From Rosistilla oblonga (lineage in GTDB: Bacteria > Planctomycetota > Planctomycetia > Pirellulales > Pirellulaceae): a stretch of DNA of 64,000 nucleotides. A program made the position numbers and the translations under genes. A model generated the notes under the pieces. That model was not told where the DNA came from and made no database searches. It saw nothing but the letters and a program-made list of their open reading frames with translations. The stretch is taken from assembly GCF_007751715.1 (NCBI RefSeq), contig NZ_CP036292.1:6951339-7015338 (forward strand), in the 5' to 3' direction. This document shows, one piece after another, positions 28,025 through 31,480 of this stretch. The stretch's first letter is position 1, and each line of letters opens with the position of its first letter.

Positions 28025-28117
28025 CATGCCGTCGCTTCGCGACTGACGCGGCAGGTTGGGGCTCAGATTCCTGGGACTTGCGTCCCAGGCTCTTGGATGC
28101 CGTCGCTTTGCGACTGA
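28025..28117. repeat. Intact copy of a ~93-bp intergenic repeat
   Basis: The unit begins catgccgtcgcttcgcgact, passes through a small palindrome (ctgggacttgcgtcccag) and ends gccgtcgctttgcgactga. A second copy starts at 28160 and is split at the same palindrome by the 402-bp element, which makes this copy the empty-site reference. Confidence 0.85.
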
Positions 28118-28218
28118 TCGCCGCACAGTCGCGAAGCGATGACACTGGACCGGAAACCGCATGTCGTCGCTTCGCGACTGACGCAGCATGTTGGGGCCTA
28201 GATTCCTGGGACTTGCGT

Positions 28219-28620
28219 CCTGTCAGTTATACGTAAGGCATGATGAGTTGTCGCGACCGAACGCTTGCCCGGCCAGTGTGAAGTCTTTCGTTCGTCGCAG
28301 ACCGTTCCACATCGCAATCATCCATGTTAGGGCCGCAGGCTCGACCATTTGCATAGCCCAGGCCATCGGCCTGGGTTCTAGGGGCGTTGATTGACATGGT
28401 TGGGCTGAAGGCCCGGTCGATTGTCACAACCACTCCCCGGGGCGTTGCCCCTTCGCCTGTTGTGAAATGAAACCGGGCGCCGTCGGCTGATACCCAGCCC
28501 TGCAGGCTGGGCTATGCAAATTGCTGGACCTTCGGCCCGCGCCAGGCGTGCCAGGAATGTGCGTGTCCCCTTTTGCCCCTTGCTTTCGCCGTTATCTGCG
28601 ACTTACGTATAACTGACAGG
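28219..28620. mobile_element. 402-bp MITE-like element with 19-bp TIRs and 8-bp TSD
   Basis: The ends are perfect 19-bp inverted repeats, CCTGTCAGTTATACGTAAG (28219-28237) and its complement (28602-28620). Direct repeats acttgcgt (28211-28218 and 28621-28628) are the target-site duplication. An intact copy of the target is at 28025-28117. Inside is a second, imperfect inverted repeat (28330-28360 with 28508-28538) holding two small palindromes (28355-28377 and 28492-28513). No full transposase is present. A minus-strand frame ending in the left repeat reads like a transposase C-terminus (TWMIAMWNGLRRTKDF, stop 28223-28225). It is therefore best seen as a non-autonomous derivative of an insertion sequence. 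Confidence 0.85.
28223..28345 (-). pseudogene. Possible transposase C-terminal remnant
   Basis: A minus-strand frame without an intact start ends with TGA inside the left terminal repeat of the 402-bp element. Its last 30 or so residues (WNGLRRTKDFTLAGQAFG, then RDNSSC) look protein-like. A stop overlapping the terminal repeat is usual for transposases. The family cannot be named from this fragment. Confidence 0.4.
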
Positions 28621-28714
28621 ACTTGCGTCCCAGGCTCTTGGATGCCGTCGCCTTGCGACTGAATCGCGACTGGGACGCGGGCCGGTGGATGCGATCGCTG
28701 TCGAGGTCGACTTT

Positions 28715-29001: not shown

Positions 29002-30069
29002 CTAGGCAGGCTTTTCGGTACCGATCTTGACGACCGCTCCTTGGCAGCTGGAACCGTTGCCGGCGGTGCAGCCGAAGCAATGCCGGCCGGTCTGGATGCC
29101 GCGACTGGCCAGCGATTCAAAATCGAAATCGGAGATATGCCGCGGTTGCTCCGGCGACAGGCCGATGTTGAGCATCTGATTGAAATCGCAATCGAACAGA
29201 TGGCCCTGCCAGTCGACCGAGACCATCGTGCGGCACATCACGCCTTCGACAGTCACCGGATTAAACGACTCGATCAACTTTTGCATGTAGTTGTCGAATT
29301 GGTCCGACCGCAACAGATCGTCCAGAAAGCGGCTGATCGGCAGGTTGGTGATCGTGTGCAGATTCGTGAAGACGATGTCGTATCGCGACTTCAATTCGCT
29401 GCGGTAGGTCGCTTCGAGAGCGGCTTGCGATGGCGGAAGCGATGGGCCGACGGGGTTGTAGACCAGGTTCAGCGTCCGCGGCGAATCGGGTTGTCCGTAG
29501 CCGAGGGCGTTGAGTCGGCGGAGGCCATCGATCGATCGCTTGAAGACGCCATCGCCCCGCTGGCTGTCGCAGTTCTCTTCTAGGTAACAGGGAAGCGACG
29601 CGACGACTTCCACCTCGTGCTCGGCCAGGAATTCAGGGAGGTCGCGATAGCCATTGGCCATCAGGATCGTCAGGTTACAGCGGTCGATCACGCGGCGGCC
29701 CAGCAACGTCGCCTGTTCGACGAGCCAACGAAAGTTCGGGTTCATCTCCGGCGCACCGCCGGTGATGTCGAGCGTCGGAATATCGTGGCGAGCCAAGACG
29801 TCGATGATCGCCTCGGCGGTCGCTCGCGACATGCTCTCGCGGCGATCGGGGCCAGCGTCGACGTGGCAATGGGTGCAGGTTTGGTTGCACAGTTTGCCGA
29901 CATTGATCTGCAGCACCTCGATCCCGGTGGCGGTCAGTCGCGGCAATCCGTTATTCGACAGCGCTTCGGTGAAGTAGGGGAGCGGAGGCGTGAATTCGTC
30001 TTCGAGCACCTCGCGTTGCCGAGCGGCGTTGGCGAGTTCACTCTGTTGTCGCAGAAGAGATAATTGCAT
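29002..30069 (-). CDS. arsS: Arsenosugar biosynthesis radical SAM protein ArsS
   Basis: A 355-residue protein from ATG 30069 (MQLSLLRQQ); a longer frame to 30168 starts inside a palindrome. The radical SAM motif CNQTCTHCH (Cx3Cx2C) follows NVGKL, with the SAM-binding GGAPEMN downstream. The C-terminal half contains NLVYNPVGPSLPPSQ and the Cys-rich FGCTAGNGSSCQGA of the ArsS family. Some family members carry selenocysteine in this Cys-rich part; here the codons are ordinary cysteines. ArsS joins a 5'-deoxyadenosyl group to dimethylarsenite, the committed step of arsenosugar synthesis. The methyltransferase supplying that substrate is the next gene upstream (arsM, 137 bp away), so they probably form one operon in the cytoplasm. 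Confidence 0.93.
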   Translation of the reverse strand: MQLSLLRQQSELANAARQREVLEDEFTPPLPYFTEALSNNGLPRLTATGIEVLQINVGKLCNQTCTHCHVDAGPDRRESMSRATAEAIIDVLARHDIPTLDITGGAPEMNPNFRWLVEQATLLGRRVIDRCNLTILMANGYRDLPEFLAEHEVEVVASLPCYLEENCDSQRGDGVFKRSIDGLRRLNALGYGQPDSPRTLNLVYNPVGPSLPPSQAALEATYRSELKSRYDIVFTNLHTITNLPISRFLDDLLRSDQFDNYMQKLIESFNPVTVEGVMCRTMVSVDWQGHLFDCDFNQMLNIGLSPEQPRHISDFDFESLASRGIQTGRHCFGCTAGNGSSCQGAVVKIGTEKPA

Positions 30070-30111
30070 CGTGTGGATTCTTTGCGGATCGGACGGTTGA
30101 TGAACGGAGAC

Positions 30112-30186
30112 TTCGTTTAACCGCGTGGGCATCGCCCCGCGTTTCTGCTGCGTGTGCAGCCTCGACAAGCTCGCGGTTTAAACGAA
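30112..30186. repeat. Palindromic repeat, family C, between arsM and arsS
   Basis: Inverted repeat ttcgtttaaccgcg ... cgcggtttaaacgaa (one-base bulge) enclosing gggcatcgccccgcg. It lies in the arsM-arsS gap, in the leader of arsS. A looser copy starts at 40971, also just upstream of a minus-strand gene. Confidence 0.7.
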
Positions 30187-30206
30187 AACTTCAATGCGAC
30201 GGGGCA

Positions 30207-31385
30207 CTAGCAGCAGGGCTCTTCGTCGCTGCAACTACTGGCGTTCCCCTGGCTGGTCGCATCGTAATCGAGCCCCTTCGATTCGCGAGGATCGCGACAA
30301 ACGTTGCGTCGACAGTCGAACGCTTTGGCATCTTCCAAGGCGATCGATTCTCGCGGCTCGATCGCGTCGAACATCTTGGCATAAGGAGCCCGCTGGAGCA
30401 GGTGGAACGTTTTGTCACAGACTGCCATCCGCTGGCCGCGGTGGTAGGTGTGGCCGTCGTCGTCGACGACCTTTTTGAATGGGCCACGATAGACAACGGC
30501 TTGATTGCGTTCCAGGCATGGTCCTTGCTTGCCCTTGTGAGCGACGACGGTGACCGATCGAAATTCGATCCCCTCGACCGTCCGCCACGGTTCGCTCTGC
30601 CGTTTGACGATCTCGATTCCGTGGAATCCGGCTTCTTCAAACGCCTGCAAGAACTTGTCCTCGCGGAACGCTCCGGTGATACATCCCGACCACAACTCGG
30701 GATCCTGCTGCAAGCGATCGGGGACATCTTCATCGCTGACGATATCGCTGATCGCCGCCCGTCCGCCGCGACGCAAGACGCGGAAGATCTCCGAAAACAG
30801 CGGCCGGCGATCCTGTTGGCGGACTAGGTTCAGCACGCAGTTCGACAGGACACAATCGACGGAATCGTCGTCGACCAACGGGTGCTGACGACGCAGACGT
30901 TCTTCGGTCTGACGCAGCGAAAGGTAGCCGGCCGGATCGTGGACCGGGTGCTCGGCCAGTTCGCTGGCCAAAAGGTCGAGGTCGAGTCCCAGGTCTTGGA
31001 TCAATCCGTAACGGAAATCGACGTTGGCGTATCCGATCGTCTCGGCGACTGTCGAGGTGTGCTTGCGAGCCAGGTCGAGCATTTCGCGATTGCAGTCGAC
31101 ACCGATCACACGCCCCTCGCGACCGACGACTTGCGACGCGATGTAGCAGAGCTTGCCGCCGCCGCTGCCTAGATCGAGCACCGTCTCGCCGGGACGAACG
31201 TAGGGAGTTGGGTCGCCACAGCCGTAGTCGCGCTCGATGATCTCTTGCGGAATCGCGGCCAGCAGGTCGGTGTTGTATTCGACGGGGCAGCAGAGTGCGG
31301 GTTCGACGGCATGGGCTGCGGCGGCATAACGATCGTAGACAGAGGATTCAGAAGACGGGGCCTCGGCGGTCGTCGTGGTCTTCAT
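30207..31385 (-). CDS. arsM: Arsenite methyltransferase ArsM (arsenosugar type)
   Basis: A 392-residue SAM-dependent methyltransferase from ATG 31385 (MKTTTTAEA), preceded by AAGGA about 8 bp upstream. The SAM-binding motif is VLDLGSGGGKLCYIA. Arsenic-binding cysteines typical of ArsM are present: CC at 32-33 (CCPVEYN), SNCVLNLV near 182 and SGCITGAF near 232, the last two equivalent to the catalytic pair of algal ArsM. An extra C-terminal region (KTFHLLQRAPYAKMF, then RRNVCRDPRESKG) and a Cys-rich tail (SSCSDEEPCC) go with the arsenosugar-type subfamily. It methylates As(III) to dimethylarsenite, the substrate of ArsS encoded next. A structured leader lies upstream (31408-31480). Confidence 0.93.
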   Translation of the reverse strand: MKTTTTAEAPSSESSVYDRYAAAAHAVEPALCCPVEYNTDLLAAIPQEIIERDYGCGDPTPYVRPGETVLDLGSGGGKLCYIASQVVGREGRVIGVDCNREMLDLARKHTSTVAETIGYANVDFRYGLIQDLGLDLDLLASELAEHPVHDPAGYLSLRQTEERLRRQHPLVDDDSVDCVLSNCVLNLVRQQDRRPLFSEIFRVLRRGGRAAISDIVSDEDVPDRLQQDPELWSGCITGAFREDKFLQAFEEAGFHGIEIVKRQSEPWRTVEGIEFRSVTVVAHKGKQGPCLERNQAVVYRGPFKKVVDDDGHTYHRGQRMAVCDKTFHLLQRAPYAKMFDAIEPRESIALEDAKAFDCRRNVCRDPRESKGLDYDATSQGNASSCSDEEPCC

Positions 31386-31407
31386 TCGCGGTTTCCTTCC
31401 AGGAGAC

Positions 31408-31480
31408 AAGGATTGGCTGGCAACACGCAGGTCGATGCGTGTGTTTTCGTCAAGGTAGACGGTCTCGGTTGCCAGTCCTT
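31408..31480 (-). promoter_or_regulatory. Structured 5' leader of arsM (candidate cis-regulatory RNA)
   Basis: Read on the minus strand, AAGGA-CTGGCAAC (31468-31480) pairs with GTTGCCAG ... TCCTT (31408-31424, with a CCAA bulge). An inner hairpin ACACGCA/TGCGTGT (31423-31442) lies within. The structure ends about 22 bp before the arsM ATG and next to its Shine-Dalgarno. It matches no riboswitch I recognise. It could also be an operator for a repressor. Confidence 0.4.

Follow-up and report, generated by a model that had tools for sequence, protein, structure and literature searches.

A non-autonomous MITE of a Tn5-like IS4-family insertion sequence inserted at the centre of a repeated palindrome in Rosistilla oblonga

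The window analysed here, a stretch of 64,000 nucleotides from Rosistilla oblonga (contig NZ_CP036292.1, positions 6,951,339 to 7,015,338, forward strand), carries at 28220-28619 a 400-bp MITE that sits at the centre of a palindromic repeat belonging to RF01687 (Acido-Lenti-1). An uninterrupted copy of this repeat lies upstream on the plus strand (28066-28117; RF01687 at 28070-28115, 47.3 bits against a gathering score of 37), and the right-hand portion of the interrupted repeat follows the element on the same strand (28617-28660), where it reaches 22.6 bits, below the gathering score of 37, and shares with 28074-28117 a direct repeat of 44 nt at 98% identity; the repeat copies in the window are 67 nt long and 135 bp apart. 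On the minus strand, 29002-31409 encodes a radical SAM protein with DUF3641 beside a methyltransferase, a pair that may point to arsenosugar synthesis.

The limits of the element were set by an end search against shuffled sequence and by comparison of 17 two-ended rows, that is, elements and their orthologues from three genomes: the one that holds the window (G000, one contig of 7.25 Mb) and two sister species of the genus (G001 and G002). The ends are perfect 18-bp inverted repeats, CTGTCAGTTATACGTAAG, at 28220-28237 (plus strand) and 28602-28619, matched twice in the window at zero mismatches and never in 100 shuffles. An earlier note, made from this sequence, had described perfect inverted repeats of 19 bp, which were indeed perfect but one pair too long, the 19th pair belonging to the duplication. 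The decamer GACTTGCGTC is present on either side of the MITE (28210-28219 and 28620-28629) and constitutes a 10-bp target duplication; since its first base is G and its last C, the duplication of the window copy may, taken alone, be read as 8 or 10 bp, and the 10-bp reading was chosen because the other family copies decide the matter. The exact 10-bp duplication is found in 12 of the 17 two-ended rows (9 of 13 when orthologues are merged), two further rows match at nine of ten positions, the orthologue of one of these two has 9 bp, and two rows lack a duplication. Exactly 8 bp was found in none of the 17, so that the 8-bp duplication acttgcgt of the earlier note, and with it the element size of 402 bp, give way to 10 and 400 bp. 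As a single strand, the MITE folds better than shuffled sequence (z -5.0), as expected from its inverted repeats.

The interior of the MITE joins pieces of different origin. Its left 96 bp (28220-28315, minus strand) correspond to the right end of a full-length insertion sequence at 91% identity (a 97-bp match from 28219) and include, at 28244-28315, the last transposase codons, matching residues 454-477 of the parent protein; its last 22 bp (28598-28619, minus strand), within which the right terminal inverted repeat lies, match the left end of the same insertion sequence at 95%. The longest transposase piece in the MITE, about 24 codons, is the C-terminal remnant that the earlier note had suspected, and there is no complete transposase gene, which together with the shared ends and the duplications bears out the description of a short, non-autonomous transposable element.

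The parent is a 1528-bp element (L029, G000:C1:5703970-5705497) that has the same ends with one mismatch each, is flanked by the 10-bp duplication GCTGGTAGGG and carries an uninterrupted frame of 478 codons; a full-length element with these ends, and with a C-terminus that matches the remnant, had been predicted. Its transposase scores 373.8 bits against the IS4-family model NF033590 (cut-off 160), carries Tn5-type DNA-binding and dimerisation domains that exceed their cut-offs together with a DDE_Tnp_1 domain just under its own (21.3 versus 23), and matches Tn5 transposase structures. The YREK signature, spaced Y-x2-R-x3-E-x6-K, was read by eye in the parent protein (P0001) as YVTRWPIETYFRVYK; the name of the motif for the IS4 family is taken from PMC2266710. 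The parent is accordingly a Tn5-like member of the IS4 family, and not of IS66, IS1595, IS6 or ISL3, the families from which the earlier note had proposed to choose. The named record closest to the transposase, from a Planctomycetia MAG, is 54% identical. A relative of the parent in G001 measures 1518 bp and has the duplication GCATAGTAGT; in G002, although it has MITEs, no close parent was found.

Between the two parental ends lies an inner repeat unit (28326-28577), whose inverted arms at 28330-28376 and 28492-28538 agree with the nested inverted unit proposed beforehand. This unit occurs without MITE ends at G000 6863177 (95%) and G001 6729234 (94%) and partially so at G000 6489220 (94%), and more distant copies, about 70-80% identical, form arrays; several one-ended MITEs stop at its right border, and at 4272795-4273422 a second unit follows the first head to tail. 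Repeats that match its arms surround the gene for a Y1 (IS200/IS605-type) transposase at L027 (2076047-2076388), and no arm matches were found at the other four Y1 loci of G000 at E 1e-4. Against RF01687 the arms reach 16.8 bits (E 0.43), which is chance level, as are the microRNA matches obtained in the RNA-family search of the window. The middle of the MITE is a separate repeat of about 250 bp and not parent sequence. An array of about 3.4 kb, composed of diverged inner-unit copies (~75%) and without MITE ends, was also observed at L024 (G000:C1:5861500-5865900).

The further copies with duplications that had been anticipated do exist. At least one recognisable end occurs at 14 places in G000, seven of them two-ended, including the full-length parent, and seven one-ended, including a broken parent copy; a match resembling a terminal repeat at G000:1438425 was dropped, there being no surrounding element. 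The family is carried by both other genomes compared from the genus. In a survey of the taxonomic family that covered 199 genomes, with at most three candidates scored per genome, near full-length copies are listed in the three genus genomes only; some match was obtained in 39 of the 199, and outside the genus it concerns the inner arms or the end of an insertion sequence. No mention of this element by name was found in the literature searched.

The duplication in the window is centred in the palindrome CCTGGGACTTGCGTCCCAGG, which at up to three mismatches has 49 matches in G000, at 46 distinct places and 24 of them exact, while the control has none; 46 uninterrupted copies of the palindrome are thus spread over 7.25 Mb. 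It hosts three of the 14 element sites of G000, namely the window and the one-ended copies at 2453164 and 167489, each of which still has half of the repeat as its surviving flank; at a fourth site, 6678980, the centre falls in a palindrome that has diverged, with two RF01687 matches below the cut-off close by. The neighbouring uninterrupted copy, which the earlier note had taken for the empty site, does exist upstream of the element; it is, however, a local paralogous copy of a multicopy repeat and not the site itself before insertion, since in both sister species the MITE occupies the orthologous place and the extra unit is missing, and we have for this reason rejected it as a pre-insertion state.

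Two alternatives bear on how the MITE was moved and why it lies where it does. G000 contains a second Tn5-like insertion sequence, with 17 open-frame copies (L039-L055) and a transposase 54% identical to that of the parent, and this element is also present in G002, where no close parent was found, so that it could be thought to have mobilized the MITE in place of the 1528-bp element. We consider this very improbable: the second element has different ends, CTGTYGATTACCCACAAGTC, and an 11-bp duplication (with the two sides identical in 15 of the 17 copies), and all 17 of its restored sites match, at zero to three mismatches, another repeat, GTAGTGGACGAGGTTACGAGTCC, whereas the 1528-bp element is the one with which the MITE shares its terminal repeats and the end that is 91% homologous. 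The repeat GTAGTGGACGAGGTTACGAGTCC, which starts with GTAG, has 122 matches genome-wide at up to three mismatches and none in the control, and GTAG-tagged repeats are known from planctomycetes (PMC3733652). The palindrome insertions, for their part, might merely reflect repeats being safe intergenic places, without any recognition by the transposase, and in favour of that explanation 11 of the 14 sites in G000 lie outside the strict palindrome and, although target symmetry is high overall for 11 two-ended targets, the seven outside palindromes are not significantly symmetric (P 0.19; the test used 11 of the 17 rows, leaving out the two without a duplication and four orthologues). These same two observations led us to reject targeting of the palindrome alone. 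Nevertheless, the duplication is exactly centred in all four two-ended palindrome sites, the chance of finding three of 14 sites in the palindrome is about 9e-14 genome-wide and still about 3e-7 within intergenic DNA, for which 1 Mb was assumed, and, as set out below, two independent MITE lineages occupy one orthologous palindrome. Safe places as the whole explanation therefore seem unlikely to us.

A related question is why the window copy is nearly identical in the three species. Of its 400 positions, 3 differ from one orthologue and 2 from the other, while the 400-bp flanks differ at 46 and 32 of 645, a disparity that could be due to constraint on a single old insertion, to exchange between species or to late parallel insertion. 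The latter two gain credit from a one-ended G001 paralogue that is almost as close to the window copy as the orthologues are, and from another locus, G001:2392796 and G002:2280070, where MITEs of different supported clades lie in one orthologous palindrome (93% over 2.1 kb, the right flank aligning over only about 220 bp) with duplications that differ by one base, the same base standing on both sides of each copy; two independent insertions fit this locus best, gene conversion being a possible origin of the differing MITEs. Parallel insertion at the window would, on the other hand, require that the same one of about 50 palindromes was hit in three species, and the three orthologues group together with support (96/90). 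We would give about even weight to late parallel insertion or exchange, taken together, and to one old, constrained insertion. Low divergence as a sign of a family-wide function was rejected: among five other orthologous MITE pairs it is reduced in two and not in three, the comparison at 4272795 being misaligned in an array.

With these alternatives weighed, the reading we favour, and hold with high confidence, is that the feature is a non-autonomous MITE derived from a Tn5-like insertion sequence of the IS4 family, mobilized in trans by the enzyme of the parent or of a relative, inserted at the axis of the RF01687 palindrome with a 10-bp duplication, and with a middle that was replaced by a second repeat before the family spread. 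Mechanistically, the transposase encoded by the full-length parent of 1528 bp, or by a relative, would act on the MITE through the shared 18-bp ends, probably reading the symmetry of the target, and a staggered cut would yield the 10-bp duplication centred on the palindrome axis. The replacement of the middle by a unit with an inverted pair of the second repeat family would have preceded the spread of the family.

The nature of the target repeat itself may be less settled than its database entry implies. Rfam files RF01687, which was defined in Acidobacteria and Lentisphaerae, as an sRNA, and in Table 1 of PMC2864571 the motif carries a 'y', the mark for a probable RNA. In G000 there are at least 72 matches at E 0.001 and at least 41 over the gathering score, with 150 of 1427 candidates scored, and there are none in 14 control genomes. 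Nine copies, eight over the gathering score, surround a Y1 gene (3246379-3246717) at L156 (G000:C1:3245300-3248000); weaker matches, none of which reaches the gathering score, number four at a second Y1 locus, L157, and one at L027, and two further Y1 loci of G000 have no match. Within the taxonomic family, 32 of 60 genomes have RF01687 matches, 24 of them over the cut-off. A homologue of the Y1 protein encoded at L156 was found in 15 of 16 genomes with RF01687 versus 4 of 16 without (P 2e-4), a comparison of related and hence not independent genomes that were picked with the RF01687 result known, except for G001, which was placed by RF01687 at its Y1 loci. At the level of individual loci (30 of 43 Y1 matches searched), RF01687 reaches the gathering score in 12 of 30 and is lacking at that score in 18, and at both L201 and L205 the Y1 gene is flanked by one inverted copy on either side. 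The Y1 proteins pass NF033573 (IS200/IS605) and fail the curated RAYT model NF047646 (22.2 and 21.1 bits versus 80). The distribution of these copies suggests that RF01687 behaves as a mobile DNA repeat; that it is an RNA, as filed, is possible, and its covariation would look the same whether it arose from DNA or RNA hairpins.

A broader proposal, which we put forward tentatively and regard as somewhat less probable than its negation, is that the Acido-Lenti-1 'sRNA' is a DNA hairpin repeat of IS200/IS605-like Y1 transposases, that such repeats serve as self-renewing landing pads, that two Tn5-like transposases each read a different repeat palindrome, with duplications of 10 and 11 bp, and that the MITE holds a third repeat family. 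If so, mobile DNA would both consist of other mobile DNA and target it. RF01687, as a curated RNA family, is suggested for re-examination as a DNA repeat. Tn5 is known for its loose target choice, and close relatives with a preference for one palindrome could throw light on the evolution of such choice; here one small genus brings together a Tn5-like transposase, the MITEs that go with it and a natural, defined palindrome as target.

Compared with known systems, the parent resembles the IS50/Tn5 subgroup of the IS4 family in its transposase domains, its catalytic layout and its size of 1528 bp, and, by eye, the right end of the MITE and the left end of the parent agree with the IS50 end consensus (Table 1 of PMC2266710) at six of seven specified positions and the right end of the parent at five of seven. 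It differs from that subgroup, for which PMC2266710 gives duplications of 8-9 bp, by the 10 bp of the parent and the MITEs and the 11 bp of the second element, and by its preference for a repeated palindrome. For the latter there is a precedent in another phylum, since all ten copies of ISRm22, an IS4-family element of Sinorhizobium meliloti, lie in REP palindromes (Table 2 of PMC1525189); ISRm22 nonetheless belongs to subgroup IS4Sa (PMC2266710), and the portion of PMC1525189 available to us mentions no MITE. The RF01687 repeats resemble the REP repeats of Y1 transposases in RAYT systems, being multicopy, two-hairpin and clustered around Y1 genes, yet the Y1 proteins here fit the IS200/IS605 model and fall below the RAYT cut-off. 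Like other bacterial MITEs, those described here are short, have ends in common with an insertion sequence, are flanked by target duplications and occur in many copies; unlike them, they have in the middle sequence of a second repeat family, members of which are also found by themselves and in arrays. The element is, in sum, of an ordinary kind, a MITE whose parent is a Tn5-like insertion sequence of the IS4 family; part of it comes from one repeat family, and its landing site belongs to another.
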